Below the pieces are notes generated by a model. That model saw only the letters and a program-made list of their open reading frames with translations. It did no database searches and was not told the DNA's origin. A program made the position numbers and the translations under genes. Below, one piece after another: positions 9,522-64,000 of a stretch of DNA of 64,000 nt. Position 1 is the stretch's first letter. Every line of letters begins with the position of its first letter. Source of the stretch: Aurelia coerulea (lineage: Eukaryota > Cnidaria > Scyphozoa > Semaeostomeae > Ulmaridae); contig CM076949.1 of the NCBI GenBank assembly GCA_039566865.1, positions 2,456,501 through 2,520,500 on the forward strand, read 5' to 3'.

Positions 9522-10098
9522 ATGAACTCCAAGTCCAACAAAATAGAAAAATTAATGCATCAAGTGCACTTCAGCAAAGATAAATTACCCGAAGTATTTC
9601 AAAATTACTTCAAAACCAACGAGAACTCTCATAGATACGAGACCAGAAAAAAATCAGATTATAAAATAGTGAAATCTAATAAAAAGTGGCGTGACTACAC
9701 CATACAAAACATTGGTGCTCGCATGTGGAATAACCTTCCTCCTTCCTTAAAGTCAATCTCAAAACAAAAACACTTCTGTAAAAAACTTAAAGAAAACATC
9801 ATCTTAGCTTACCAAAATGAACTATAAAAGATCTGCATGATTAATAAGACTTACAAACCAATAACATTCCTTACTAACAAAAATATATCTTACTGTTGAA
9901 TTTTCCTAGCTTTTGTACTATGACGTATTTTTTCTTTTTCGTATATCCTTTTGAATTTTAATTTACGGCCCAAGCTAGATAAGCTCCGCTTTTCTTGGGT
10001 CGTGTAGAATACATTTATTTTTTATCTTACATTGTATTAGGTTGTTGTATTCTGCGAATAAAATTGAATTGAATTGAAAATTGAATTGAATTGAAAAT
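9522..10098 (+). mobile_element. 5'-truncated non-LTR retrotransposon (LINE): reverse-transcriptase C-terminus plus 3' UTR
   Basis: An open frame at 9522-9827 encodes about 100 residues with the hallmark C-terminal pattern of CR1/L2/jockey-type ORF2 proteins: a YETR motif, then MWNNLPPSLKSI, then a helix with FCKKLKENI. The reverse-transcriptase core and endonuclease are absent, so this is a dead 5'-truncated copy. The 3' UTR holds a stem-loop (9965-10003) and ends in a TTGAA-type microsatellite (about 10056-10098), the kind of 3' tail these clades use instead of poly-A. Clade assignment is tentative. Confidence 0.8.
9965..10003 (+). other. LINE 3'-end stem-loop
   Basis: ACGGCCCAAG (9965-9974) pairs with CTTGGGTCGT (9994-10003) through ten base pairs including one G-U wobble, with a 19-nt loop. 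Such 3' hairpins serve as reverse-transcriptase recognition elements in several LINE clades; a role here is inferred. Confidence 0.7.
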
Positions 10099-32400: not shown

Positions 32401-35186
32401 GTAATTTCGTATCGGCTTCTTCTTGGTTGCTAGTCAGCATTTCTTCATTTGCCACATTTGACAACGTTATTTTCGAGCAATGGTTCGCAGTAGAAAAGTA
32501 CAGCTCTGTGCAACGAAGAATATTGAGGGCTTTTTGACGGTATGTAGATATCGTTTCTAACATTAAATTGATCAGTCGCCGCTTGTTTTCTCCATTTTTT
32601 AGAAAATCAGCATTTTTAGAAAATTAGCATGCTGGAGAGTGGTTATCGAAAATGAAAAATTTATAAACACTTTTAACGCCCTTGGGTCTTCATGGAGTAT
32701 CGAAGAAAAAATAATCGAAGAACTTGAAGAATATGTTTGCCTTTTATATGGATGTCGTCAGAACGATGTGGATACCGCTCGGAAGAAGCTTTTCGACAGA
32801 AAGTACCTCAATCAAAACAAAGTTGTAGGTATATCGTTGCGTCCTCCATGCCAGTCATCTTTGTGACTACATATTTTACGAGCAAATGTTATCACAAGAA
32901 TCTGGAACCTCTCCGACCAAAGACAGATCACGCTACCAGACATATCTCAGCATGGATGGGAAAGATCATTTGAAATCAAGTGGATTGAGAGTGCATTCCC
33001 AGAAGATATTGAAGAATTGCTGGTGGAAGCGGAAGATGACGTTTTTCTTAGGATGACGAGGAAAGTGACCAAGACATTGACACAGAGTATTAGGTATGCT
33101 TTCCTTTCATAATTATCACGTGGTATTATGCATGCTGACAATGGTGCAAATAGTTCAAATAAAGCATAAAATTGACGCTAGTTATAGTTTCCTCCTTTTA
33201 TAGCAGATTTGGCCATTTATTGATAGTTACCATATAAGGAAAAGGGTGATTTCGTGTCACGTGACCACTTTTTGATGAGCTGTCAATCATCTATTAACAT
33301 CTAACTTCAGTATCTGGTGGTTTTTGGCTTAATTTGGTCAGATCCAAGCCAGCCCGTGTGTTATTAAGTGGAATAGCCCTGTTTCTCCTCCGCAGAGGCA
33401 TTTGCTCAGAGTGGTCAAACTTTAACCCCCGATTTCACCCCCTAAACCCCAGCAGATCGCTGATCACCATCACGTTCCAAGATGCCTAGGGTCATAGGTA
33501 CCTCAAAATACCCATTTAGATTTCTCCGCTTAGAAGTGACCCGTACCTCATTCATAGCCTGGTCTAAAGTGTGCAATGGTAAAATAGAACAAAGAAATAA
33601 CTCAGACATAGCATTGTTTGTTAGCAAGATAAAGATCTCATTCTTAGGCTACCCTTTGTTGATATTGTGTGCAACTTCCATTTGAATGGGGTATTTTTAG
33701 ATTTTTCTGCTCTCTGCAAATGCAAGCTTTTAACCTTGCACAAACCCTTTAAATTTGCTTTTGGATAATGGGTCTACTTGTAGGCTATGTTGTATGAGGA
33801 TTTACAGTGTGCTGGAGTTAGGATTCATCACCATAGATTCGAGATATGTCCTTAATAGAGAAGTGCTAAACTTGGTTATTTACAATGATATTACCAATCA
33901 AATCAAACTTTACTTTCACACTTGGCTGTTTGTCACACTTTCTTCCTTCTTCTGGCAGATTTTGAAGAAAGGAGAATTGCAAGTTTCAGAGAAAGAGAGA
34001 GGGCAACAACTGGAGTCAATGTTTCGAGACATAGCAACCATTGTTGCTGAGAAATGTGTAAACCCAGATACAAAAAGACCTTATCCTGTTGGTGTTATCG
34101 AAAGAGCAATGAAGGAAATTCATTATTCTGTAAAACCAACGAGAGGGGCAAAACAACAGGTGATAATTCAGTTCATTGTGCATTAAGATTATACTTATCC
34201 TTTTTCACGCATTTCGAATTACCTATATTTACAATGCTCAGAAAAATAGGGAAGAAAAATCATAAAAAATACTTCAAACTTTCGGATATCAATCAAACTT
34301 TGGTGCATTCCTATACCTTATGTATCCTCCGCATTACAAGTTCTCAAAAACAGTATCCAGTACAAATGAATGTTTGAATATAAGACTTAAACATATTTCA
34401 TTGCAAGACCTTCCTCGTCTTGGTAAAGATGTATGAGTTGATTGTCCGGTGGTTTTTTAAAGGGGGCTCCGTCTCCAAATTTCGATCGAAACGGTGATTT
34501 TGTTGAAGTTTTTGATGGGCAATATCACACAGACGTTTACCTGTTTTTTTCAAAAATGAAAGCATCATTTTGAAGATAAATCTTTGTATTTTACAGAGGA
34601 AAAACCTAAACATTCATATCTCTTACGATTGCTTGGATAGAAGCGGATTTTTAGTGAGCACTTTTTGGTGGCTTGGGTGAAGCCACCAAACAAACTGCAG
34701 AAAACAATGGAGAACAATGGACATGTGCGGTGTTTATAGATAAGTTTACAGTTTGGTGACGGAGCCCCTTTAGGGATATAGTTAAATCTCGTTTTACAGC
34801 AGTTGGCGGTGTTTTCTCGTAGGCACTTGAAGTAATAAAACAGCTAAAAGAATCAATACCAATTGCTCGAGCACAGATGAGGATAAAACTATGTGTACCA
34901 AAAGAATATGGCAAAAAAGTCAGAGATAGATTGGTGCAAAATATTCATACCGTTGAAGCGGAAGAATGGGACACTGGAGCATTGGAAATGGTGAGTATAT
35001 ACAATATTTGTTTAATTTGTTTGAAAATGCAACGTTGGAAGGTAGCATGAACTGAAGGGAACGACATAGTTATTGAAGTGGGTAGACATAGTTATTACTC
35101 CCCGTGGTCTTGTCCTTGTAGTAGAGTAGAGTAGTTTGTAAGTATAGTAATTAAGTAAATATGTATTGTAAATTTTTAGCAGAATG

Positions 35187-36857: not shown

Positions 36858-37280
36858 TTAGTACATTGACTGAGCTCTTGTGACAGTGGATTCATTTATC
36901 AACGCAGAAAGACTCGACTTTGTTTTTGTTTTCACATTGTCACTTCCATGTCTTTGGACAGATGGGTCATCGCCAGGGCGTAATTCATCTTTTCGTGACG
37001 TCGATGGTTTATGCGAAGTCATCTTTTTTATAACATCAGCTATCGTATTTGGGTTCACATTCAAACGCAGAAGATCTAGAACAATTTTGAAGAGATCTGG
37101 ACTCATTTTCACCCCACTCAGCTCACACAAATCGAATAATTCATCATCTATTGTTTTGTTTCTTGTATAACTTGATGTTTTTGTCGATTCAATAGTAACT
37201 TTGAAGAGATCAGGATTCGATCTTGATTTCCTTTTCAAGTCCGAAGCCGTTTCTTTATTCACGAGTCTTGCAGCCGCCAT
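36858..37280 (-). CDS. MZT2: Mitotic-spindle organizing protein 2 (MOZART2)
   Basis: An intact single-exon frame of 140 aa starts at ATG 37280 (MAAARLVN). Residues about 45-88 form the conserved helical core: DDELFDLCELSGVKMSPDLF, then KIVLDLLRLNVNPNTIADVI, then KKM. This aligns with the human core (ELYELA..GGIDPDVFKILVDLLKLNV). The remainder is a low-complexity, Ser/Thr/Lys-rich tail, as in vertebrate MZT2, which is also variable there. The family binds the N-termini of gamma-tubulin complex proteins and helps recruit or activate gamma-tubulin ring complexes at centrosomes. It is convergent with SBDS and divergent from ESS2. Confidence 0.93.
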   Translation of the reverse strand: MAAARLVNKETASDLKRKSRSNPDLFKVTIESTKTSSYTRNKTIDDELFDLCELSGVKMSPDLFKIVLDLLRLNVNPNTIADVIKKMTSHKPSTSRKDELRPGDDPSVQRHGSDNVKTKTKSSLSALINESTVTRAQSMY

Positions 37281-37816
37281 TTTTCCTTGTTTACGAAAAG
37301 GACCTGTTTTACGACCCTCGATTTGAAAAAGAGGCGTTCGGTAAATGGTAGTTAATTTCGTGCAATTTCAAAACGTTTGGTGAAGAAGATTGAAGAATAT
37401 TATTGAAGAGTTCGTTTTGTCATATCCTTGTAAAATAGTGTTGTTTTAAAGCAACAAAGAGGCGAAAGATTCAAAGACCAGCCTTGCAAATTAGGGGCAC
37501 ATTTCTGCACATCTGAATTGGTATTGACCCTCTCGCAGACTCATCCGGAGGAAGCAAATTCCGTGTTGTTAACTTTTAGGCCCTCCTCTGCCTGGCCTAG
37601 CCTATCCACCAATAATAACAGACCAAACAACGCTATAGCAAGCTCTTGAATATAATTTGTAACTGCCTGTTAACTGGCAAACCACAACACCAATTGTATT
37701 ATCTTTGAAAGTTTCCAGAAACCATCAAACAACGAGGAGATAAACCAAGCCAAAAAAGGGTTGCTTGCATTTTTCCTGTTATTTCCATAGTACAGTTACA
37801 CAGCCTGGTGACAAGT
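37281..37816. promoter_or_regulatory. Bidirectional promoter region, MZT2 / ESS2
   Basis: 536 bp separate the two divergent ATGs. No canonical TATA box was seen at a convincing distance from either start. The compact head-to-head arrangement implies a shared promoter. Confidence 0.6.
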
Positions 37817-40800
37817 ATGGACAAGGACAATAGAAACAGTTCAAAAGGAAAAGAGATGCAAGTACTCCAGGAATCAAAACTGCAACTAGTACCAACATTT
37901 AAAGATGCAAAGTCCAGGGTTTTGAGAAAGCAAAATGTTTTAGAAGAAGATGCATACATAGAGGTATGCAATCGATCCAGCTGATGCTATCTAGCACTGG
38001 ACACCAGTGTAATATGGATGTTTTTCTATGTGCTATCAAACTTCTTCACCTTTTATGGGGCTAACTATTGATTAGAAATTACCTGGATATATATAAAATG
38101 CCAGAATTATAGTTAATTGCAGTTAATTATGATTAATTAATCAAATTATGCAAATATCCAAAAATGCACAAACATCATAATCATGAAGGAAATGCCTTAG
38201 ATAGAAGGGACATCAAGTGGAATTTTAACCTCCTGTCATTTTAATTTGATACACAATATAAAGTTGGAAAATCTGGGCAAAAAACAAACCAATTTATCTT
38301 TGAAGAGACAGGGCAGAAACTGTGTAAAATGACATCATCAGGCAATCTGATATTGGAAAGTGTTTGTGTATTTAAGCTTTTTGAATTGTTGCCTAATTTA
38401 AGGACCTGTTGCAGGAAGCTAGGGCTCAAGGTTACACATTTTCACACTTGCTGCTCTGTCCTTTGAAGACCGTTCTTCAATAGACCTTTTAGCTATTCTG
38501 AAAAGAATCAGAATCGAACAACATTTTACTACATTTTGTAGAATTTTCGAATGAGGACAATAGTGATAGAAGCTCTAATGCCACTCGATCGAACATAGCG
38601 TATAAAAATAACGCTCGATCCAGGCTCTTTTGTAGAATAGCTAAAAGGCCTATTAGAAACGGTGGATCATAAAATGTTGTAACATAGAAAATTTCAAAAT
38701 ATGAGCTGACTGACATCTGTTGTGATACTCTATCAAAGTTGCTATGGCTTTTGAAAATTTTGTCATTTCTTAAAAATTGAATGAACTTGATCTTTTTCTC
38801 CAACAGGCTGTTGATAAGATAATAGAGAGAGATTTCTTCCCAGATCTTCCAAAGTTGCAGCTACAAGCAGAATATCTAGATGCACTGAGTTCAAATGATA
38901 TTGACAAACTAAGATCAGTTGAATTGAAACTGGACAGAGGTTTATCTGTCAGAAGATTCAATGGTAAGTTCAAAACTAGGAACAAAATAGAAGATTCTAC
39001 ACAATTAAAAATCCACTCATTTTTTTTTAATTCTTGAGTGCCATCTTTGATAATCTTTTAAAGAGTCTAATTTAATTCTGCAGCTAGGATACATTTTTCC
39101 ATATAAATTGTGAGAACATTATCATGAAATGTTTGTCTTGTTTGCGAACCAAAGCCAAAACTCTAGTGACATTTCTACTTTGATTAGTGTCAACACAATG
39201 CAGTACCTAGGCTTAGTGCACATTAATTTACAAGAATTCTTTACATTATTATGATCAGACTTCTTGAGTGATACAGTATGAAAGATTGCAATTTTGTAAA
39301 GAAGAATTCTTGGGCAGGGAAACCATCTTAATGTGTGGAAGGCCTGTACTGTAGAAGTAGAACATTTTATCACTGGTATAGTTCCACCTCTCTCTTGTTC
39401 AGCTCCAACTGTTATCAGTGAATGAAGTGGCCCAAAAACCAGTGTCAACTTTCGGAAAGAATTGCATCATAGCTCCAATCTATGATTGTTTATTTCTTTT
39501 GATTAGTTGATTTTTATTTATTCCAGATTCGACGCCAAGTACCTTTGAAACACCTTCTACACATAGAGCAGAAACACCCAGCAGTGCCAATACAAGCATT
39601 CCAAACACCAGACAAAACGAGGCATTATCGTCCACTGTTCCCAATGTATCACTTGATAATTTCCTTGCTAAAAACACAAGTGAAGACAACGCTTCATTCG
39701 AGAAAATAATGGAGGAATCAAAACATCGAATAAAAGAAAAATTTGCTTGGTTATTCCAGGCTGAAGATGAACAGGGCAAGAAACAAGATCAAAATCTTGC
39801 TTTGCCAAGTTGCGAAGAACAAGTTTTAAATGCAATTGATGATAAGCCATACAATCTCGATTCATGGACGTACAAATCACGAAATGCGTTAATGTACGTG
39901 CCTAATGGCGTAGAGTTGAGCGCTAAAGAGTTGATTGAGGGCAAGGGAAGGAAAGAGAGGGTAATAAAACATGAGAATACGAGATTTGACGGTGATCCGT
40001 TCAATTCCGTTTCATGTAGAGCTGCTTTGAATGAAGCTGCAAGTGAACATGCAAATATCAAGAAACAAGTGGGTAAGATCGGTGCTGATGGCAATGTGGA
40101 GGCTGCAACTCCGAAAGTGAAGGGATATGGTTTTGTAGCGACACCGTCTCCTGCACCAGGTATGGAATTTGGAGTTTTTTATATACGATCCGAATTAGTT
40201 CCAGCAGTGGCCTTGTTTACCAAGCAGATGATTGATCAAAATGATTATCCCTGAGCATTTTTCGCTGCTGCCTGACACTTTCGAACGAAATAAACTCATA
40301 TCGGTAAATACAATCAATTTTCGCGAATTTTTTTCAAGATTAAAACTATTTACCATTTGCTATAAATGCCGACAAAAATTCGTATAGCTTTTTTCGTCGA
40401 ATTCGAGAACTTAACTCGCCGCGAAAGTTCTTGAATCATTCTTAGGTGTCATCTAGATTTCCTCACGTGAACAACCGACTCTCTCTTTAATTCCATTAGT
40501 GTACATATTGTTGTTTCCGATACGAACTTACATTATGTAATGACTTTTCCTAGCCAGCAAAAACGTAGATTTTCTGCTAATAATTCTAAGCAAGTCCGAG
40601 TTCTCTCCAATATACAGTAAAAACCCGCACATAAGAACCTTCATCTGTTAAGAACCTACAGCCTGAAATAATATATTTTGTACCCAATCAATAAGAACCA
40701 TTTCAGGCTGATATCTAAAGTAGGTTCTTAATAAAGGGTCTTATTCATTCATTGGGAAATAAATGCAACATTTTTGCCAATCAACCTCTTTCGTGAACTG

Positions 40801-47332: not shown

Positions 47333-47416
47333 CTATGATTGCGAAACAGCCACGTAAATTGCCACAGCGATGATGATTAGTAAGACTGTACAGCAGATGA
47401 TGATGATTATCTTTTT
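47333..47416 (-). CDS. STX1: Syntaxin terminal exon, distal alternative (TM anchor type 2)
   Basis: After the acceptor TTTTTCAG the exon encodes 27 residues: [24 protein letters not shown], ending SQS and TAG. It is a bare transmembrane anchor with a three-residue tail. It is phase 0, like the proximal exon at 51304. The KK-x-III-CC opening is the conserved juxtamembrane/TM start of syntaxins, so this is a true terminal exon rather than chance sequence. Confidence 0.85.
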   Translation of the reverse strand, partial: KKIIIIICCTVLLIIIAVAIYVAVSQS

Positions 47417-50400: not shown

Positions 50401-53400
50401 AACAATCTTCAACATCTCAGAAATCTTCACAAAATCTTAGAAATCCCAAGAAACCCTTAAAATCTTCTATAAAAATTCCAGATTCCCACCCAACAAATAA
50501 TAAAAAATCTAAAAAAATCTTTCGATAATTCTTTCAAATCTCAAAAATTGTTTAAATTCTAAAAAATTTTGAAAAATCGTGCAAAATCTTTAACAAAACC
50601 AAACAACTTTTGAAAATCTCGAAAGAATCTCAAAAAGTCTCAAGAATTCTAGAATTTCAAAAGGTTTTATAAATCTTGAAAACTCTCTGAAAAACATGAG
50701 AGATTTTAAAAATCCTAAAATCTCGCATTTTTGGAATGATTTGCTCCTCGTCATGTAAAAAAGTTTAGAAAAGCTAAACAACTTTAGGTTTAAAATCTTG
50801 TGTCACCACGAGCTATAGGACAATCTGAACCAAAAAAGGAGATTTACGTTTGATACATCGAGATCATATTTCTTTCTGTCTCTAACTCTCCTGCGAAGGC
50901 GACATTTTAATCCCAGCGCGTGGCGGCAGATTGACGTGAACTTGAGGGCCCTGGAGGAATTATGCCACTCATCAGATTGAAACTCCTCAAAGAGATTCCT
51001 TCTCTACTCTTCCGTTCATTTAACCACGCCCGAGTGGCATAATGGCACTGTCTAGCTCACTTCAATCTGACACGAGTGGGGATTAAAATTGTTACTTGAC
51101 ATGTCAGAAACGAAATAAACTGCAAAGAACCCATGTTACATTAATCACATTTTCAATTCAGCGTTTCCTACAGCCCGTGGTATGACAAAGAATGCTGGAT
51201 AAATTGTAATGTCCTCAAAATTTTCAAACTATTACTTTCTTTTGGCGCACACAGTTGTTCTATTTTGATAACTATTAGCATATTATTGTCATTATTTTAT
51301 GATTTATTCATTATTACTTTTAGTTTTTTTCATGGGTAGTACTATTGGCAAGGTTATTGCCGCTGCAACGACGCATAGCAGGACAACACAGCAAATGATT
51401 ATGAATATTTTCTTCTGCAAAAGAAAATTTAGTATCATTAGATCAACACTCAACGCAAGGAATCTCGCAACAATCTTTCAAATAAATAAGGCCTTGTTGC
51501 CACAATTCCCAAAGTATTTGGCTGATTTGATCTGTGAGCTCCATCTCTAAAAGATTTGTGGAAACGGTTATTTGGCAGTTTTTTGAAAGGATTTTGACGT
51601 GGACTGTTCATCTTTTTCAAAATGAAAGCGTTGTTTTGGTGATAAATCTTTGTACTTCACCGCATCACACAAACTGCAAAAATCAATGGATACGTGCTGA
51701 AACAATGGTGTTTGCAGATTTGTTTATAATTTAACCACAGAGCCCCGAGGCTCTGGCACCCAGGGCAACCATTAACTTGACGTTGTTAACTCTATCAAAT
51801 GGCCTAATGTCTCTCAAGGGCTTTTCGCTAGCATTCTCTGCTACAAACATTTGAATTTCAGGCAGATTTAAATCATATAAACATACTTATTAGCATAAAT
51901 TTGATATGTGAATCAAAATTAGTCGTCTGAGGACTTTCTGCTAACAATAATATGTTACAACTTTTTGTATTTCTAGTAAATTTGTATAGGTACAAATAAT
52001 TTCATAGCACAACTACCAATTTGGATTTTAAATTCATTTGGTTAAAACTGATCATATGGTTACATAAGCAAAAATGTGAATTCATCGTAAGTCTTCTAAG
52101 AACTTCTTGCAAACAGCATTTAAAAATTGTTGTATTTCCAACGCATTTTTATAGGTCAACATACTTTTATTGTTGCGAAATTCAAATCAAATTTTAGATT
52201 TATCTGGTTAAAATTGATCATACCATTCTTTAGATGTATGATTATATTATGATATCACAGAAGGATTAGAAGTTTGACCAGATAATGTTTACAGATTTAA
52301 CAGGGCCCTTGTTGATAACAATACTTTCTAGTATTGATAAAGTATTTACCCTGTATAAACATACCGGGTGTCCCAAAAAAAAGGTAACAGATTTGATTGG
52401 GGCTAGCGATAAGAATTTAAGTTGAATCGACCCCTGATAAGTTTTGAAGTACTCTTAGATAGTTAACTTGAAGATTGATACCTTATTTGTTGATATTGGT
52501 GCATCAAGAGTTGGAATATTAATCTTGAAAGTCCAAATTTGCCTCCTACTCCAAACCAGAGCTTTTTGGGTTTGGCCTAAGCTGTGAAATCACTGTGCTG
52601 TGGAATCTCCTCAATCATAGCCAAGTACAAACAAGAAACCTCGTGCTTAGGAACACATTTTAGTGGAAATCTGACTCTGAACGTTACAATTAGATTCAAG
52701 AATTTAGCCCCGAAGGGAGCCCTTTCTTGATTCTACAAAAACTGTAAATTACACCTGCCTGAGAAAAGTTATTCATCAGTGAAATAAGTCCCTTAGGCTT
52801 TAACGCATAGACTATCTTGCAATCATCATTGCTTGAATGAAATGTTTTTTGCATCATCTCTCACGAAATTATTACGAAAAAAGGAATCGTATATGCCCAA
52901 GGGAACATAAAAAATGCTCATTCGTGCTTTGCTTGGGGTACTTTTGTAAATGCATTTTGACTGGAGAAAAATATTCCTTGGTGACTATATTCATGAATTT
53001 GTTTGTTAGTTTTCAATTTTTTACGGTCTTTTCAAACGGGTACCCAAAGGACCGATCCTTGTCCAAAAATTCCTTTGACTGAGGAGATTTCCCTAACCAG
53101 CGCGTTAGCAGTTTAGGCCAAAACCCAAAAGCTCTGGTTTGTAGATGGATGCAAATTTTGGCTTTCGAGATTTACATTTCAACTCTCGATGCGTCAATAT
53201 CAACAAACGAGGTATTAATCTTCAAGTTAACTATCGAAGAGTACTTCAAATTTATTTGGGATCGATTCGACTTATACTCTCATCGCTAGTCCCCATTATT
53301 TAAAGCAGTCATATTCTTAAAAATATCATCATTGTACAGCTAAGCAATGTTTTAAAAGCAGGGAGCTATAACTCGGCTAAATTCTCCATTCTTGAACTTT

Positions 53401-56400
53401 CAAACCACACTGTCACTCGCATAGATGCCGTCAGGAAAATACAACATAGGCATACAAATAATTGGAATTTGGATTCTTACCCTCCTAGCTTTGCTTTGAT
53501 ACTTGACGGCTTTTTTCACATCCGTGACGGCGGCTTGAACATATTCTGCTGCTTGTTCAACGTTAAATTCAATACGATTGACCATTTCGCCCTATCAAAA
53601 ATGAAAAATTAATAAATAATTGGAAACTGAACTCTTACCCTCCTAGCTTTACTTTGATACGTGACAGCTTTCTTTGTATCAGTGACGGCCGATTGAACAT
53701 ATTCTGCTGCTTGTTCAACGTTAAATTCAATTCGATTGATCATTTCGCCCTATCAAAAATTGGAAAAAAACGATTACGTTATCTGAAAATGCTTGAACGT
53801 AAACTTTTATCTCCAGGAATGAAACAATTATTAAATTTGGACAATTTTTCAATAGAGGCATTCCATTTTGGGTCATCCAGTACTACAGAATACTGCAGTA
53901 ATATGTCGTTTCTCCGCAAATAAAAATTACTGATTTCCTCTCTGAAATTAAAAAGTAAATAAAATTATTCACAAAAAATACCGAACGTCTCAATAAAAGT
54001 ACTCCTGTTTAAAAAATCAGCAAAATTGTTAGGTTTCTTTTCTGGCAAGAAAATTAAGGACCAAATTATTTTCCCAGGTATAGTTGATCTCGTAACTGGT
54101 TTTGAAATTTGCAAATTTCGCTCTCATTAGGGCTGCCTGGTTTTGAAGCATACTGCAAAGCGTATTGGTGATTACCTGATTAATTTTTTTCTTTTTGTAC
54201 AGGGTGTCCCAAACAAAATTGTTCGAGGTTTGATTAAATATTAAAAAATAAAGAAATAATGAACAGATTCTATGGTAAGATAATCATATTGCTGAGATTT
54301 TAAATTAATTTTAGACACCAGAAGCTAGCAAAACGGCTAAATATTCATGGAGTTATGAGCTTTCGAAGTTCAAGTTTGTGCGAAAGTTGAAACCAGACGC
54401 CCGTAAATTGCATATTTTGTGAAAGTAGCATCTCGCTTATTCAAACCAAATCAAATGGAATTTGAAAAGCACTTTCGATAAATCAGCTTTCTCTAACATT
54501 GAATCAAAGTAATGAATGCTTGGAGGAATCCTGTTGGGCACAATTTGCAATGGTCCCATCGCTTATTGATTAAATTTTACTAAGGAGTACTTTTTTGGGA
54601 CACTCGGTGGACATTTAAACAATTGTGCTTCTTACCTGCGATTCGACTAAAATTGCCATATCTGTAAACATTTCATGCAATTCCTGTTAAAGAGATTAAA
54701 GATAGTCATTCATTGATGCTAGTTAAATCAAAGATTTTTAAAAAAAATTACCAATAAGCTGGTGAATAACTTGTTTTCGATATTTTGAATCTGTAAACAT
54801 TTCAAGCAATTCCTGTTAAAGAGTTTAAAGACAGTCATTCAGTCATGCTAGTTAAATCAAATACTTTTGACACAAATTACCAATAAGCTGGTGAATAGCT
54901 TGTTTTCGATATTTTGAAAATTTTGAATAACATGTACATGTGGATCGAAGCTAAGAGGAGTTGGATAACAAGAACATTGGCAAAAGAATACGTCTATTGT
55001 CTTTAAGCAATCGGCGTGGTGTGATAATTTGGGTGTAGCAAAACAAACTTTCCACCCTATCAAGGGGCTTTTAGCTACCAAGAGTCAGAGACACTTTGCC
55101 AAGACAGCCTAAAAATTCAATTTACGATATATTTTATGTCCCATTCTCACTGACAAAGTTGAATCAGGGTATCTACACAAATGATTCGAAAAAGGAAAGG
55201 CCACAATACCAGCGTTGATCGTCGGATCCGAAGATGCTTGCAGCGAACAATAAATGAATAAGTTTGTAGGCAGAAACACCACAAAACACGACGAAGAAAC
55301 AACAGGGTCAGATTTTAACCAATAAATGAATTCTATTTACTGGGTTACCCAATTAGAATGCAACATTTGATTATCTGGTTTCGTTTCAGCTGGTTCAAAT
55401 TGTGAGTGTGACTGTGGTTTTTAGATCTGGTGGATACTGCATTGCAAATGGAAAAATATTTCATACTTACCCGTATGCTGTTTTCTAATTTCATGATATC
55501 ATTATGTCTAGCCTCGATATCACGCAGAGACTGCTTTGCTTGCTGCGTCTCCACAATGATCTGAAATAAAATTTTAATGGTTAAACAATTCATTAATTTT
55601 CCTGAGACAGCAGACTGATTACATAGTTGTAGTGTTCACCATTGAGAGACTGATAGACAATCAAACTACAATTTGAGCTTCGCAAACAATTCAATAAAGG
55701 TAAAAATGTAAAAAAGTGTTGTTGTTGTTGGTGTTGCTGCAATAACTGGGACCAGTCCAACAGGTACTCTTGGCGTTATACATTTTCAAAAAAGGAACTA
55801 ATTTCTGGCCAACCCGGTGCATAATTTGAAACAGAGTTCGGGTTATGCTAAAAACTATATTTTGTTATCATCGCAAAAAGGCGCATATTTTGATAAAATA
55901 TCATGAGATAATGAACTTACTCCTTGCGTAAATATTGCAGGATTTCCAGTTTCGATCATCTCTTCCAATTCTTCACTGGTTGTCGACCTTCCAGCTAAAA
56001 AGAAGATTGTTTTATGCCACGTTTTAAATTTTTCTTTGGTTGGTCTGCAGTTAGAATTAGGGAACAAGCATGCAGAGGGAGACATGTTCAAGAAATCAAG
56101 ATCTGCTGCTTTGTTTTCGTTGAGCCTGCGTTTATGCTTCCAAAAATTTTGCGACATTCATAACAAAATCATGGAAATCATTGCCATGAGAGCACAACAG
56201 TATAAAATTGATCCTTTCAGCAAACAGCGAGTCAAATAACATGTTACACATTTAAACCCAAAGTTATTCATACCTATGCCAAATATGCAGTATTTTGAAT
56301 CGTTAAATTTGCGGACCAATTCACGAGATATTTTATTCCTTCGAATGCATCTTGTTGTGCTTCTACGGTAAAAGTGGTCCTCAAATAGAGCGATGCAAAA

Positions 56401-59400
56401 TACTCAGAATTTGGTGCAGGCATGATATGAACGATTTCGACTTTAACTGTAATTTTGAAAATTACATTAATTCTCAGCAATCCTCGATCCTCCTGGTGCT
56501 GTTTTGAGTTGTTTGTCTCCATTTTTCTACCAGTATTACTGGTTTTACCGGTTTCTCTAGTTATTTTTCTCCCCTTTTGCACACAGCTTTATCTTTATAT
56601 GGCTATTTTGCCCTTTTTGGACTTTTCCCAATTCTCACTAGCGTGTATCTCATTTAGTATTTAATCGTAACTCCACCCAGTCAACTTGCTGAGGATGGAC
56701 CTAGGAAGTTTCGAAGCGTACTAATTTAATATGGCTTAGCCACTTGATTTATGTCATCTGATTTATGTCACTTTAATTATAACATGGACTTGTCAACTTT
56801 CTAACTTATTGATTATGAAATATGAGTCAATCAACATGATGTTTTTTGTCGTCGTACTCGCCCTAAAATTTTGAAGATGATATGAAAGTTCAAGACGCAA
56901 TATCATGAATTGTTTGCGAAATTGAAAATAATCATCAAAAAAGGTAAGAGGTTGCTGCAAGGTAGTTTTCGTCTGTACCACAGTTCAGCATTTGAGTTTA
57001 GCATCTCATTAATCATTCCTATCTTCATTAAAGTAGCAGTTGGACGTGATGCTGCGCATGACATTTTCATTGCATTCCTATGGACAGTGCTTAGGCTAAG
57101 CATCGACTCGTCAATGGAGATTTTGAATAGGATCATCGCATATTTCAATCTATCTCCATCGGCATTTCTGTTGACAATCTCACGAATTGACTTGAAATAT
57201 ATTGTTCATCTATATCGAGTTCATGCAATTTTCAAAGTTATTTTGCTGATCACAAATTCCTGAAAGTCGTAAACAGTGATTGCTGGAGCAACTTTGAAGC
57301 TGCAAAGAGATAAACTACAAGTCGAAGTGGGCAAGAAACTCACCAAAGAATATAGTTTTTGAGTCAGATTTATGATGCTTGATGAAATGAAAGGTGAATA
57401 GAACCTTCTCGAACATGCATTCATTGCTAGATTAATTTCGTCGGAATTACAACGAACAGAGAGGTAATGTAAACATATGCAAGCAGAATCTGTTACCCGC
57501 GTCTTGCGTCTAACTGCCCCTTTAAACCAATAGACCTTTAGCAATTCAGAAAAGAATCAGAATCGAACGATATTTTGCTACATTTTGTAGAATTTTCGAA
57601 TGTGCACAATAGTGATAGAAGCTCTATCGACACTCGATCGAGCGTCGCATGTAAAAATGTATAAAAATAATGCTCGATCCAGGCTCTTTTGTAGAATAGC
57701 TAAAAGGTCAATGCCTCTGTCTCTTCGATACGGTCAAACTTACTAATTTCCAGTTGCCGCTGAATACGATTTTTGCATCGTTCTCTGTAATCAGTTTGAA
57801 TAGCATTATATTCGTGCATCACTTCCACAAATTCTCTTGACAATGTTGAATGCTAGAGACAAAAATAAGGAAGGTTTGGTGTACTTTGAAGAGTCATTGC
57901 TAGAGCATTTGAATATGCTGCACCTCATACCTGGAGCTCGTTGCTTCTCCATATCAGACATTCTAAGGACATTACTGTTTTCAAAAGGCAGTGAAAACCT
58001 ATTTTTTTAAGTTTCTATCTCTGGTGTAAAATACTGTAACTTTTTAGATTTTCGTTGTGATTTTAACAGTTATTTTAACTTGATGCATGCGCCGCAGAAT
58101 ATTGTAAAATATAGAGGCGCATTTTAAAATCAATTATTCATAATTATCTGCCGGGTGTCCCAAAATGATGTATTATTATTTGATTGCTTATATGTCCATA
58201 ACCGATTGATCGATTTTCAAAAAAATTATTTCATCCGATTGCCGAAAGGCTAAATTGTATTCGATGATGTTAGTTGTGGTTTAGGCCGATGTCTTCATGT
58301 TCAAAAGAAGATCGATAAACCTACTCAAATTCAAGCCTTACATGGCATGAAAAAGAAGCGGCCTACTTTCCCAGTCAATATTTTAGATATGATGCAAAAG
58401 GCTGAACTTATATGTCGTTCAAAGAATATATATCGTTCGGCCAATACGAATTCAGTCATACTGAGTTCAGGGAATACGAATAGAAGTTCAGCCTTTTGTA
58501 TCACATCTAAAATCTTGACTGGAAAAATAGGCCGTTTCTTTCTCATGCCATCTAAGGCTTGAATTTGAGCAGGTTTATCCATCTTCTTTTCGACATGAAA
58601 ACGCCGTGGTAAAACCACAACCAACATCTTAAAATACAATTTAGGCTTTCGGCAATCGGATAAAATAAAGTTTTTGAATATCGGTTATTTGGTTATGGAA
58701 ATATAAGCAATCGAACGATAATACATCATTTGGGGACACCCGGTATATATTGCTAATCAAAATCCTGTGCGTATGGAATGAAAAGCAAACAAAAAAGAAC
58801 TTCGGTTAGAAATGACTATCATCATATAAAAAGTCGACTTAAGGGTCCCAAAGGATCATGGTAATCATTAGTCTTTAAGCAAAGAATAGAAAGTTCAGGA
58901 TTTACTTTTCATCTTATTATTGAAAGCAATTTGGAAATGTTTCGGTGGTACTAAACAAATCCTTCTAGACGGTGTGATGTACAGTTTTACTCTTCAATTT
59001 CTGTTTTCTTATGCTTTAAAGGGGCTCCGTCGCCAAACAATAAACAAATCCTTCTAGACGGTGTGATGCAAAGTTTTACTCTTCAATTTCTGTTTTCTTA
59101 TGCTTTAAAGGGGCTCCGTCGCCAAACAATAAACAAATCCGTAAACTCGCACGTGTCACCAATTATCCATTGTTAATCCATTGTTTTCTGCAGTTTGTTT
59201 GTTGGCTTCACCCAAGCCACCAAAAAGTGACCGTTAAAAATCCACTTATATCCGAGCAATCGTAGAAGAGATGAATGTTTGGTTTCTTCCTCAGTGAAGT
59301 ACAAGGATTAATGCCCAAACAGCAACTTTCATTTTGATAAAAATACGAAAATCCTATGTGATATCACCTTTCAAAAGCTGCAAAAATCATCGTTTTGTTT

Positions 59401-62400
59401 ACATTTTGACGACGGAGCCCCAAGATGCTATCAAACGCTTAAGATCTATTTTCAACACAAGTTGACTTATGCTGGATTATTTTCCTATCAAAGCTTGATA
59501 ATGTATACAGCCATGCAGTTGTGCTTGATTCCCACAGCTTTGTTCTTTTGTGGGGGAAAATATTATTTACTACTACTACAGAGATAGCGTTCGTTATCTC
59601 CTCAGCAGGACTGTAGAAATTATTCCTCCGCAGGTACATATTAGTTGCAGTGCTCCTCCATAGAAGCACACCAGTAGTGCCTAATTACCTAGCCTCACTA
59701 CATAAGGACCCTCTAGTTACGCTCATCTAATTGAGTTGAATTGTTGTTGTTGTTGTCGCTCCACTGAGGGCCTTATGGACATAGAGCTGTAAAACCGGAC
59801 AAAAATGTCAATCTGCGACAAGTTTTTGTCGCAAACTCATGTGCTGATTAGAGTATGGCTTAAAAAAGGCGCTTTTTGCATTGATAGCTAGAATGAACAT
59901 TTATCGAAGTTCTGATAGCAAACTTTATGGTACAGGAGTTCTGGAAAACCGTTTTTGTGGCGTTTTAAGATCAGTGGTTTTGAGGAAAAAGTAGCAGATT
60001 GATTTAGGCCCAGTAGATCTTTTAGCTAAGATTCGAAAAAAGAATCAGAATCGAACGATAGCTTGATACATTTGTAAAATGTTCCAATGTAAACAATAGT
60101 GATAGAAGCTCCAACGCCACATAATCGAACCTTGTGTAGAATAGCGAAAATGTCTATTAGTAGAATCAGTGAGGAGATATTCCGTTTCGACAAGCGTAGG
60201 GGAATGAGTCTCTCTGTTGACCGAAGCTCCATCATCAAGTCAAAGAGCACAGGGAAACGAGAGACTCATCGTCATAAGTCTACTAATTACCCATGATACC
60301 GCATATTAATGTATTAAGAACAGTTCAGTTCCAGAGGATCACGTTTTTGAAAAATGATATAATCTTTCACAGTTCAGGGTAATAAATTACAAAAAGTTCT
60401 TGATTACCATTGCATTTCTAAGCAACCAAATATGATACAAACCTGACTTCTTTTAATTCTTATTTCAGCATAATTACCACCACTTGCAGTCTCTTGTTCT
60501 TTCACGTGTCTTTCCATACCTACAGGATACAATCAACATTATAACCATAAACGAGTAAATAAATAAAGTAAAATATAAGCACTTTGATGAGAATTGAAAC
60601 AAGCACAAAATATTTCAATATTGAAATATTGAAGTATTTCAATTCGCATCAAAAGTGCTTATATCTTACTTTATTCATTTACTCGTTTATGGTAAAAAAT
60701 TTACAGTATAGTTTTACAGTATCTATCAGTAAAGATTGTTTGTGTGTATTTTTTTCGTAGCTGTACATTGACTGATAGAATAAAAAAACTCGCTTAAAAA
60801 CATACTTTTGAGACTGCTTTGAACTCGATTTGAACTTCTTTTGATATCTGCCATGAGCTGTTCAAGTTGTTCTTTTGTCCCTGTGGCAAAATATGGAAAG
60901 GTCACTTCTGATGCATATAGATAAAGTTTGAAATGTACCGGGTGTCCCAAAAAAGTACTCCGGTTTAAAAAATCACCAAAAATCAATTATCAAACCTTTA
61001 ATAAAATTTTCCTTTTCACTTGTTTTGTCAAGGACCCAAAAATATTTCTAGATTGTAAAAGTTTTGCTTTTGATACAACAAGATAGAAAAATTCCAGGTT
61101 GAAAAACCTTATTTTGAGCTATAGTTTTTAAGCAAAATACTCAATCGTGCCTAAGAGTCAAAATTTCCAGATTTTATTACATCATTTAAGTCTCTAAGGA
61201 TAGTGTGCATTTCTTTCTTTCATTCATGACCAAATTAGAAGCTTTCCATGCACAAAAATTTGATCTGGCAATCACCAGTGATTTTTTGCAGTATCATTCA
61301 AAACCAGGTAACTCCAAAAAGTGCTAAATTTGCTAATTTTTAAACCAATTATAAAATTTTCTATATCTGGGAAAATAATTTGGTCCTTGATCTACTTGAC
61401 AAAAAAAGAAAATTTAAGATGTAAGCAAATGTTGGTGATTTTTCAAACGGGAGTACTTTTTTTTTGGGACACCTGGTATAAATATATGAGTCTAAAGGCT
61501 AATGGGCTGCTAAAAATATACCTGCAAGAAATTAAGAATCTCAATCTAAGAAGGGAGCTGCTGGAGCATTTTCTTATTGATTTTGCAAACTTATAAAGCA
61601 TCCATTTATTATAATATCAACAGTAGTAATGAGGTTACCTTTATAATAAGATCTACAAGGATCTAAATTCATTTCTGAGATCCTGCCTTAAGACAATTGC
61701 CATCACATTGCGTTGTATGGTTCTAATGAGATCCAATAAAACCATTTACAGTAGATACAGAATACTGAACTGAAATTTTATTGCTTAACATCCAGCATAC
61801 AGTCGAAGGTACAGCCCTTGCCCACATCAACATGACAAGATTCGTCAAGAATTCTTAAGCATCCCTACAAAATTTCAAGAATTCTTCAATTCTGACAAGA
61901 CTTCTTGAGTCATATGAATAATTGTGAAATTTTTTAAACAAGGATTCTTAAGAAAGTAAAATTTTTCTTCTGGAGAATTTTTAGCCAGGAAAACCATGAT
62001 GCTAATGCATGCAAGGCCTAGACTGCAGCAAAGTCTGGGAGGGACCCAAAATGCTTTCAGCTGACATAAGCAAGTCCATACTATGATTTAAATAACCCAT
62101 GTCTAAACAAACACAGCCAAAGAAAGAAACCACACGCCAGGTGGGTGTCTTTGTTTCTTATTGTTTAAACACCACTCCATTTAACCAAGTGTATTTCATT
62201 CAAGAACAGAAAAACAACAAGCAATGCAAAAAAATGTTTATAAACAATCATCACTTGTATGTATCGACATTTGTTATCAATTGAATTACACAAGAGAATA
62301 ATAGACCTCTCTTTGCAAATGAAATTTGATTCACTAAGCCTGGGAACTGCATTTGACTGCACTACAGACTTCTTGCCTTAGATTTCCTCTTGACAAAAAA

Positions 62401-64000
62401 TTGAGCATTGTTTATATCTCTGCAGAATTGTTATCTACATTTGGAGAATTCTCAAGAATTTCTTGAGGATTCTTTATGTTTAATGTAGACAAGCCCTGTA
62501 CTGTAACTAGTGGGTCACAAAAACGTATACACACTTTGAAACATCGCATTACAAAAAATAAATACAATTCCATTGCCTAACTGAGCATTTAACATAATTT
62601 TGAGACTTGATTCCTAATTGGAAATGAATTATCTTAATTTCAATGAAGAATTCTTGAAAACTAGCTTCAATTGGCTTTTGTAAAACTATAAGTGATTGGT
62701 TCAATTTGATCACTGTTTCAACGATCAAAATGGTAAAATAATGTTTCTCTTAGCTCGCGCATTGCTTTCTAATGATGCGGAACCCTTGAAATGTTATAAT
62801 ATGCTTCCCCATAATGCTGGGCATCACAAAGTCTAAATCTACATAAGTGTGAACAGGCCATTTTCTGCTGCTTTGGGGAAAATACAGTATATATCAAGAA
62901 ATAGAACATTTGGCTAATTTCAAATTTCAGAAGGAAGTAAATGTACCAAAATTATGAGAATAATCTTGAAATCAATTTAAAGCCCCAGAAAGATAATGGA
63001 ATTAGAATTTTACAAATTAGTTGCATTGTAATCCTTGTTGTGCAATTTTCAAACAGTTAATCCATTTTTCTGGCTCGTGCGGTTCATAGGCTTTCCAGGT
63101 TTGATGCACATGCTCCACTGGAGGACAGATAACTAAGTTCTACTCAATAGATTTTGTAGAAGGATAACATTAGGTGTCCATATTTTAAGTCTGTGCACTT
63201 CCCAAACCAAAAAACTGGGAAATACCTAGGAATTCCTAGGATTTTCTGGGTAATTTCTGGGCAAAATTCCCTTGCTTCCTAGGATAAAAAAGGTGGGGAA
63301 AAGGGCAAAATTCCTAGGAAAGCCGGCAAACAGTGGAAATGCAATGGAATTTTTTTGGAACATTTCCCAGCTTTCCTAGCTCTTTGGGTACTGATTCCCA
63401 GCTTCCCCAGCTTCTTAGGAAACAGAATTCCCAGCTTGAAATTTGTTTTGATGAAAAAGCTAGGGAAACTGGGGAAATCCTGGGAAATCCTGGCTTTCCC
63501 AGTTATCTCCCCAGCTTTTTTGGTACGGGTTAAGACAAGCTATAAATAAATTTTGCAAAAGACAAATAATTTATAGTGAAACCTACTTTCACTTGGTTGT
63601 GGGGCAGTGAGAATATCACTGTGCTTCTTTTTAACTTCCAGGACATTTTCTTTGATTGTGCTAATGTTCTGTTGAATTTCTTCAATCTAAAAATGAAAAA
63701 ACACATAAATTGTATTTGGTAGGTGAAATACTAAAAATTTGCAAGAAGATGGAGGCAAAGAAACAAGACTTTAAATCAGTACACCAAGGCCTTTTGAACT
63801 TATGTTCTCTTCAGAGTGTGACTAACATTTGAAAGTGAAATCCATTGTAACGATTGCAAATCTTATTAACTCTTACATGATGCAGTCGCAAACCTGCGAC
63901 AAGATTAATTCTTCAGGCCTACAAACTTTCAGGTGGTTACTTTGTTAAAAGTACAACAATAATTTCTTTGTTACAAACCTGTGTGAAGAAGTCATCTAAA
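47333..64000 (-). CDS. STX1: Syntaxin-1-like Qa-SNARE with alternative C-terminal exons (5' end outside window)
   Basis: Minus-strand exons in order: 64000-63979 (DDFFTQ), 63686-63587, 60880-60806, 60519-60443, 57852-57744, 55994-55921, 55560-55471, 54683-54636, then 53749-53639 or 53591-53481, then 51414-51304 or 47416-47333. All phases fit. About 271 or 262 residues are visible; human STX1A has 288, so only about 30 N-terminal residues are missing. The Habc part reads [23 protein letters not shown], then [15 protein letters not shown] and [20 protein letters not shown]. The SNARE motif follows: [29 protein letters not shown] (ionic-layer Gln last), then the alternative half-helix and KK-I-IIICC anchor. 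The family sits at the plasma membrane and drives vesicle fusion with SNAP-25 and synaptobrevin. STX1 rather than STX2/3 is the best fit, not proven. Confidence 0.95.
47442..47726. repeat. Inverted repeat just upstream of the distal syntaxin exon
   Basis: GATCATGAGTGGTAGGAGAC and ATATTTATTCAAACTTACT on the left are mirrored by AAGTTTGAATAAATATG and GTCTCCTACCACTCATGATT on the right (arms of about 80 bp). It starts about 25 nt from the exon's acceptor, inside the branch-point zone. Confidence 0.8.
48002..48465. mobile_element. Pogo-like MITE, TA target duplication (copy 2)
   Basis: CAGTAAAAACCCACGTATAA on the left and TTATACGCGGGTGTTTACTG on the right, each bordered by TA. Homologous to 40615-41029. 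The open frame at 48034-48336 is repeat sequence. Confidence 0.85.
48475..48685. repeat. 105-bp tandem duplication
   Basis: CACCAGGTATC(A/G)ATTCATCAG starts at 48475 and 48580. Each unit ends in a run of TTAGGTAAC-type words. In a syntaxin intron. Confidence 0.85.
48686..51303. other. Syntaxin intron interior, no gene recognised
   Basis: The main structure is a low-complexity zone at about 50330-50760, built from imperfect AAATCTC/AAAATCTT words with frequent AAAAA. Short frames in it are compositional. No RNA gene recognised. Confidence 0.45.
51304..51414 (-). CDS. STX1: Syntaxin terminal exon, proximal alternative (TM anchor type 1)
   Basis: Acceptor CTTTTGCAG, then [20 protein letters not shown], a short TLPIVLPM stretch and a charged tail KKTKSNNE before TAA: 36 residues. 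The first ten residues match the canonical syntaxin-1 anchor (KKIMIIICCV) better than the distal exon does. The charged luminal or extracellular tail is longer than usual for the family. Confidence 0.88.
   Translation of the reverse strand, partial: KKIFIIICCVVLLCVVAAAITLPIVLPMKKTKSNNE
51545..51760. repeat. MITE family E, degenerate copy
   Basis: GGCAGTTTTTTGAAAGG, CAAAATGAAAGCGTTGTTTT, and the right end ACAGAGCCCCGAGG parallel 34510-34770. The left end is worn. Confidence 0.5.
52364..53296. mobile_element. Large palindromic element with CCGGGTGTCCCAAAA left end
   Basis: The left end CCGGGTGTCCCAAAA follows TA (52362-52363). Arms of about 200 bp pair: GATTGGGGCTAGCGATAAG with the complement near 53280, and CAGAGCTTTTTGGGTTTGGCC with GGCCAAAACCCAAAAGCTC. 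The right terminal GGGACACCCGG is lost. It separates the SNARE exons from the proximal terminal exon. Confidence 0.75.
53481..53591 (-). CDS. STX1: Syntaxin SNARE C-half exon, version A (downstream copy)
   Basis: 111 nt, phase 0 on both sides, 37 residues from [10 protein letters not shown] to YQSKARR. It starts immediately after the ionic-layer Gln and ends at the polybasic juxtamembrane segment. The core-layer residues are V at +1 and V at +7. Donor GTAAGA; acceptor TTTTTGATAG. Confidence 0.93.
53639..53749 (-). CDS. STX1: Syntaxin SNARE C-half exon, version B (upstream copy)
   Basis: 111 nt, phase 0, 37 residues from [10 protein letters not shown] to YQSKARR. It differs from version A at residues 4 (I/V), 20 (S/A), 25 (T/V) and 30 (T/K). 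I at +1 and T at +7 are the states in vertebrate STX1A. Exon starts are 158 bp apart and the 47-nt intron between versions has homologous edges, so the pair arose by tandem duplication. Confidence 0.93.
53995..54607. mobile_element. Family C element debris (GTGTCCCAAA ends)
   Basis: 53995-54190 resembles 60950-61320 but is rearranged. At 54198-54199 TA is followed by CAGGGTGTCCCAAA, and 54590-54607 reads GTACTTTTTTGGGACACTCG in inverted orientation. Likely two nested copies. Confidence 0.6.
54660..54905 (-). repeat. ~128-bp tandem duplication carrying an exon fragment of syntaxin
   Basis: The acceptor and first ~23 nt of exon 54683-54636 (GAATTGC(A/T)TGAAATGTTTAC) recur upstream at about 54812-54790, with the same CTCTTTAACAG acceptor, and flanking sequence (CCAATAAGCTGGTGAATA) is duplicated again to about 54905. 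The extra exon fragment lacks its 3' half and donor, so it is a decoy or pseudo-exon. Confidence 0.8.
55995..57743. other. Syntaxin intron interior with family F copy
   Basis: Holds the MITE at 57531-57710. Overlapping open frames on both strands at 56900-57260 show no recognisable domain. Confidence 0.4.
57531..57710. repeat. MITE family F, copy 2
   Basis: TAGACCTTTAGCAATTCAGA at the left and AGAATAGCTAAAAGGTCA at the right. The interior (GATAGAAGCTCTATCGACAC, GCTCGATCCAGGCTCTTTTG) matches copy 1. Confidence 0.85.
58151..58743. mobile_element. Palindromic family C relative, CCGGGTGTCCCAAAATGATG ends
   Basis: The left end CCGGGTGTCCCAAAATGATG and right end CATCATTTGGGGACACCCGG are inverted. 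Inner arms (CTTACATGGCATGAAAAAG with TCTCATGCCATCTAAGGC; AAAAGGCTGAACTTATATG with AGAAGTTCAGCCTTTTG) also pair over some 270 bp each. Non-coding. Confidence 0.85.
58953..59141. repeat. 89-bp tandem duplication containing the family E end
   Basis: AAACAAATCCTTCTAGACGG begins at 58953 and 59042, with a third partial start at 59131. Each unit ends TTTAAAGGGGCTCCGTCGCC, so the MITE's terminal repeat has been duplicated along with its flank. Confidence 0.85.
59110..59425. repeat. MITE family E, copy 3
   Basis: Left AAAGGGGCTCCGTCGCCAAA; right TTTTGACGACGGAGCCCC; interior GGCTTCACCCAAGCCACCAA shared with copy 1 in the other orientation. Confidence 0.75.
60014..60156. repeat. MITE family F, copy 3 (shortened)
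   Basis: TAGATCTTTTAGCTAAGATT at the left, GTAGAATAGCGAAAATGTCTA at the right (abridged), interior AACAATAGTGATAGAAGCTC shared. Confidence 0.75.
60545..60692. repeat. 148-bp near-perfect hairpin beside a syntaxin exon
   Basis: CCATAAACGAGTAAATAAAT on the left pairs with ATTCATTTACTCGTTTATGG on the right, and pairing continues inward through TATAAGCACTTTGATG / CATCAAAAGTGCTTATA. Its near end is only about 25 nt from the acceptor of exon 60519-60443. Confidence 0.9.
60938..61476. mobile_element. Intact mariner-like MITE (family C reference copy), TA flanks
   Basis: CCGGGTGTCCCAAAAAAGTA on the left and TACTTTTTTTTTGGGACACC plus TGG on the right, bordered by TA (60936-60937 and 61477-61478). 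539 bp and no transposase, so it depends on another element for movement. Truncated relatives at 10094 and 53995. Confidence 0.85.
61479..63199. other. Syntaxin intron interior
   Basis: Contains AAGAATTCTT-rich segments and CATGCAAGGCCTAGACTGCA, similar to 39290-39360 in ESS2 intron 2 (GGAAGGCCTGTACTGTAG), suggesting an old dispersed repeat. No gene seen. Confidence 0.4.
63200..63535. repeat. Cluster of CCTAGGAA / GGGAAA words with a 16-bp palindrome
   Basis: CCTAGGAATTCCTAGG (63225-63240) is a perfect palindrome. The rest alternates GGGAAA and TTTCCCAG words that can pair into several stems. It lies 52 bp from the end of exon 63686-63587. Confidence 0.7.

Follow-up and report, generated by a model that had tools for sequence, protein, structure and literature searches.

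The DNA analysed here (the window) is a 64,000-nucleotide (nt) stretch of the Aurelia coerulea genome (assembly GCA_039566865.1, contig CM076949.1, positions 2,456,501 to 2,520,500), and all coordinates given are window positions. It contains a syntaxin gene, read throughout on the minus strand (64000-47333), in which eight constant coding exons are followed by two tandem exons, A and B, for the membrane-proximal half of the SNARE helix, and by two terminal exons, TM1 and TM2 (Table 1). The start codon (L007:1372, in exon 1) and the remainder of exon 2 are located beyond the window. All internal splice sites in the gene model are GT/AG, and the frame is continuous in all four combinations of A or B with TM1 or TM2.

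Table 1. Features of the A. coerulea syntaxin gene, in order of transcription
Feature	Position	Strand	Basis or remark
End of constant exon 2	63979..64000	-	Cut by window edge
Constant exon, Habc domain	63587..63686	-	Gene model
Constant exon, Habc domain	60806..60880	-	Gene model
Constant exon, Habc domain	60443..60519	-	Gene model
Constant exon, Habc domain	57744..57852	-	Gene model
Constant exon, linker	55921..55994	-	Gene model
Constant exon, start of SNARE helix	55471..55560	-	Gene model
Upstream constant exon, last residue is the zero-layer Gln (...VESQ)	54636..54683	-	Gene model and rat alignment
Exon A, SNARE layers +1 to +8	53639..53749	-	I at +1, T at +7, T at residue 30
A-B intron, 47 nt, GT...AG	53592..53638	-	Gene model
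Exon B, tandem copy of A	53481..53591	-	V at +1, V at +7, K at residue 30
Terminal exon TM1, transmembrane segment	51304..51414	-	Gene model
Terminal exon TM2, closest to the Rhopilema tail	47333..47416	-	Gene model and alignment

The encoded protein has the Pfam domains Syntaxin (140 bits) and SNARE (63.7 bits). Among its best 120 matches the closest named relative is a syntaxin-1A-like protein of Rhopilema esculentum (89% identity over 87% of the query), while all family-named proteins in that set are called syntaxin, syntaxin-1A or syntaxin-1B, and the best PDB matches are syntaxin-1A. Judged by these matches, the gene is the syntaxin-1 orthologue (a plasma membrane Qa-SNARE) of a medusozoan cnidarian. 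A profile search of the 574-Mb assembly with PF05739 gave six matches, being exons A and B and four elsewhere.

Exons A and B each cover the part of the syntaxin-1 SNARE helix that starts directly behind the zero-layer Gln and runs past layer +8. Both are 111 nt long and in phase 0, with the same acceptor end (GATAG) in front and the same donor (GTAAGA) behind. An earlier note, made from the bare sequence, had described such a tandem pair with its junction directly after the zero-layer Gln, and both exons were located exactly where it had placed them, with intact splice sites; the last residues of the upstream exon, which stops at 54636, are VESQ. The duplicated unit of exon plus short intron has a step of 158 nt, of which 147 nt are alignable at 89% identity, a likeness not due to chance. 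The 12 differences in 111 nt between the two exons change four residues: 4 (I/V), 20 (S/A), 25 (T/V) and 30 (T/K). Three of these were named correctly in the earlier note, which left out the S/A change at residue 20, as well as the second transmembrane exon (47416-47333) and the STX3 precedent discussed below. In an alignment to rat syntaxin (PDB chain 9ojz_G, positions counted by eye), the last Gln of the upstream exon falls on Q226, and residues 4, 20, 25 and 30 on I230, R246, T251 and K256, respectively. Residue 230 we take to be layer +1, as had been proposed for exon residue 4. The assignment of residue 25 to layer +7 likewise agrees with the alignment, as T251 of rat syntaxin is described as layer +7 in a 2015 eLife study (PMC4744192). 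Exon residue 25 also aligns with position 254 of the 291-amino acid Glossina syntaxin, the site of the fly T254I mutation.

Tandem repeats are a common source of assembly trouble, and the earlier note had raised the possibility of an assembly duplication. A duplication of this kind, or a pair of collapsed alleles, is extremely improbable for A and B, as the exons differ at 12 positions, the adjoining intron pieces differ even more, and a search of the assembly with exon A returned exactly two matches, both at this locus (A itself, and B at 89%); we rejected it as an explanation on these grounds. No third copy of the exon was found within the window at E values up to 0.1, except for a 24-nt match of 83% at 10062-10085.

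It is also conceivable that one of the copies is effectively dead, rarely or never entering the mRNA and having had too little time to decay. The locus does make useless copies, as a neighbouring 129-nt tandem duplication has left a shortened copy of the preceding exon, to all appearance dead. Against this stands the pattern of substitution between A and B, with a nonsynonymous rate (Ka) of 0.061, a synonymous rate (Ks) of 0.371 and a ratio of 0.165, and with no stop codon, no frameshift and intact splice sites in both copies. Neutral simulations (20,000 trials each, with 12 random changes per copy) seldom matched this pattern, with copies that were free of stops and had at most four residue changes in 0.11%, 0.17% and 0.57% of trials at a transition bias of 1, 2 and 4, respectively. 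This argues that selection has acted on both copies during much of their history, which makes a dead copy decidedly unlikely and alternative use of A and B likely, with both exons probably expressed. The neighbouring duplication itself lies at 54660-54917 and its halves are 91% identical; the truncated exon copy in it (54812-54789) has kept the acceptor and 24 nt but has no matching donor.

The tandem duplication of the 158-nt unit would have supplied a pair of exchangeable exons for the half of the SNARE helix next to the membrane. Most likely each mature mRNA takes either A or B, but not both, because each exon fits the reading frame of either neighbour, inclusion of both would shift the register of the layers, and the intron between them is only 47 nt long. 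Joint inclusion keeps the reading frame while adding 37 residues to the helix, and hence would not be removed by nonsense-mediated decay; if it is harmful, something else must prevent it. The other gaps counted within the gene range from 286 to 3887 nt, the largest being that between TM1 and TM2. When the intron between two neighbouring exons is very short, crowding can prevent their joining, as in alpha-tropomyosin, and the 47-nt intron suggests that a similar steric block may prevent the joining of A to B, which would make the two mutually exclusive. One of the two terminal exons downstream would then supply the transmembrane segment, allowing for up to four different proteins. As candidates for competing RNA pairing, 18 inverted-repeat pairs were listed in the region 51415-54683; those touching the 47-nt intron (I12 and I14) are A+T-rich and imperfect.

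Alternative exons of this type have precedents in other SNARE genes. The STX3A and STX3B forms of vertebrate STX3, a paralogue and not syntaxin-1 itself, are far more diverged from each other than are A and B. According to the published description (PMC11476516), STX3 exons 1-8 are common to both forms and exons 9A and 9B alternate together with the transmembrane exon, with tissue-specific use of the two forms in retina versus gut and other tissues. The earlier note, which knew of no described exon pair for the C-terminal SNARE half, is contradicted on this point. Both genes combine an alternative half-SNARE exon with an alternative transmembrane exon, and the second transmembrane exon found here makes the locus even more like STX3, the likeness being drawn from the published description. 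In STX3 the half-SNARE and transmembrane exons are named as matched sets (9A-10A and 9B-10B), whereas the order here is A, B, TM1, TM2. In Caenorhabditis elegans, the syntaxin-1 orthologue unc-64 has alternative exons 8a and 8b for the C-terminal membrane anchor, regulated by UNC-75/CELF; in that account, as far as available (PMC4946901), the SNARE half is constant, whereas in A. coerulea both parts are duplicated. Similarly, exons 5a and 5b of SNAP-25 are described as an ancient tandem duplication with mutually exclusive splicing and nine residue changes (PMC2581893), and so resemble A and B as tandem exons of a SNARE gene with few changes, although SNAP-25 is a different SNARE, in which exon 5 spans the linker and the last part of the first SNARE motif.

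We expanded the comparison to 267 syntaxins, collected from three protein searches with the best 120 matches of each. At least 12 of them have two copies of the exon, one after the other, in a single predicted protein: four insects (two Anopheles, Lutzomyia and Spodoptera), six teleosts, the mite Oppiella and the bivalve Pinctada, all with the same 37-residue exon unit. The search pattern makes this number a lower bound, the proteins are gene predictions, and P0002 (Blomia) was excluded since it looks like two joined genes. Annotated isoforms that differ in the exon are also present in other phyla. Isoforms X6 and X5 of the brittle star Amphiura filiformis have five residue differences, all within this exon, and X2 and X8 of the ribbon worm Lineus longissimus differ in the exon and in the transmembrane tail; like A and B, both pairs are identical up to the zero-layer Gln, but unlike B all of these forms have Thr at layer +7. 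Copy-to-copy identity in nine of the 12 two-copy proteins was 10-27 of the 37 residues, compared with 33 of 37 in the window pair.

With regard to residue 25, Thr is present in 44 of the 53 distinct first-slot forms (from 253/267 proteins), and also in all 14 proteins missed by the pattern. The nine forms lacking it are five fish alternates, three medusozoan proteins (P0004 with V, P0005 with I, P0264 with V) and a second Hydra protein. In ten of the 12 two-copy proteins (six fish, three flies or mosquitoes, and one moth) the less usual copy has no Thr at +7, and in two it does. We considered whether this reflects convergence at +7 and rejected the idea, as the two-copy lineages are related and the copies compared have diverged widely (identity at most 16/37 in fish and 16-23/37 in insects), so that the change at site 25 does not stand out from the many others. 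The second Hydra protein (P0230, Hydra vulgaris X3), a more diverged syntaxin-1 with Ile at layer +7, was considered as a splice partner of X1 and discarded, since it differs along the whole protein. The Amphiura filiformis isoforms also vary outside the exon: a linker stretch before the SNARE helix is swapped between P0014/P0020 and P0012/P0018 (NEELEEMLESDNPAIF versus TEEVEEMLESGNPSIF), and there are at least three different transmembrane tails.

In a tree of the 37 exon columns, built to separate an old duplication from repeated ones, A and B fall among the medusozoan and hydrozoan forms (support 94/92); the tree includes no STX3 sequence and resolves little, with 3/30 inner branches well supported. 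The duplication is apparently specific to this cnidarian lineage, although exon B groups with P0004 and P0264 (84/59), and the two copies may go back to an older medusozoan split. The valines at residues 4 and 25 of B look derived by sequence comparison. For T30 of A the same proposal was dropped, as both S20 and T30 of A are also found in Nematostella.

A protein made with exon A has Ile at +1 and Thr, the usual residue, at +7, and one made with exon B has Val at both. In single-molecule work on rat syntaxin (PMC4744192), the energy of C-terminal zippering was 5 kBT higher with the T251I substitution, which set it apart from the other layer changes in the same study, and the fly mutant T254I is described as having more spontaneous and evoked release and as being paralysed at 38 C (PMC4744192 and PMC8377282). 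This Drosophila mutation, syx3-69, affects the same residue as exon residue 25 and, as in B, replaces Thr at +7 by a residue that is hydrophobic and beta-branched, but as described it is a laboratory mutation to Ile rather than Val, with temperature-sensitive paralysis, and not a splice form. By analogy, the more hydrophobic +7 layer of B would add C-terminal zippering energy and favour fusion, so that splicing could act as a setting of release strength and B would plausibly be the stronger-zippering, release-promoting isoform, with a smaller energy shift than that of T251I because Val is smaller than Ile. It is from this likeness that we infer an effect of the A/B choice on fusion. We give a probability of roughly 60% to the explanation as a whole, that these are duplicated alternative half-helix exons, with A or B in each mRNA and with B raising zippering and fusion.

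Several observations weigh against that explanation. Exons A and B are known here from genomic sequence alone, and none of six splicing-factor motifs tried was enriched in the A/B region (54683-51304). Thr-to-Val is a milder change than Thr-to-Ile, and B also has V at +1, which may have an effect of its own. A focus of the four changes on core layers is not significant, the chance of at least two of four falling on the eight layer sites being P = 0.20. For the three medusozoan proteins with V or I at residue 25 a second form was not seen: they may represent B-type exons, or the +7 layer may be loose in medusozoans, in which case a residue other than Thr may be ordinary variation there. In a rival explanation, both exons are used but the choice is nearly neutral, the outcome of a recent duplication giving similar proteins that are kept by purifying selection for basic function and chosen by splice-site proximity. 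That 4/37 residues differ, mostly conservatively, and that the donor and acceptor ends are identical in A and B fit this possibility, as do the lack of significant layer enrichment and the V or I of the relatives. On the other hand, residue 25 has changed at all three codon positions (ACA in A, GTG in B), Thr prevails at this site among the first-slot forms and the 14 pattern-dropped proteins, and a single change there measurably shifts zippering energy, as reported in PMC4744192. Near-neutral use of both exons is accordingly somewhat unlikely, if by no means negligible.

The choice between exons for half of the helix is a known kind of variation; what is new here is its presence in syntaxin-1, in a cnidarian, and with a minimal difference of four residues that touches layers +1 and +7. 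As the exon is alternative in STX3, in the brittle star and in the ribbon worm, and duplicated in insects, fish, a mite and a bivalve, the comparison suggests that exons for the C-terminal half of the zipper have been duplicated repeatedly; our searches of the open-licence PMC literature gave no description of such a pattern for syntaxin-1. A bolder version, in which the duplicated half-helix exon is a recurrent device, gained independently, for setting fusion energy, and B is a natural splice-controlled counterpart of syx3-69 (T251I), is possible but doubtful. If it were true, the zippering energy of a common fusion machinery could be set differently in neurons and in stinging or gland cells. 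Discharge of the stinging capsule is described as a form of exocytosis driven by calcium, and the stinging cells of Nematostella as expressing syntaxins along with other SNAREs (PMC12464826). That neurons and stinging cells divide their labour between A and B is no more than an idea open to testing. Should both exons be in use, this cnidarian makes two syntaxin-1 proteins that are four residues apart, two of these in the core layers behind the final step of fusion. The pair would then resemble a natural single-layer mutagenesis experiment, with a clear and measurable prediction for zippering given the 5 kBT of T251I.

Repeats were also seen in the introns of the syntaxin gene. The intron following exon B holds a 178-nt inverted repeat (52443-53250, 81%, arms 452 nt apart), which is perhaps the remnant of a mobile element. 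By eye, a short repeat resembling GGGACACCCGGTA recurs at 54608, 54216, 52380, 58720-58150 and 61470-60940; some of these copies lie near the ends of A+T-rich stretches and may be termini of dispersed elements. Elsewhere in the window, exon-level matches were found to MOZART2 (36858-37367, minus strand), to SBDS domain II (33734-34186, plus strand) and to the Es2 nuclear protein (39511-40254, plus strand).
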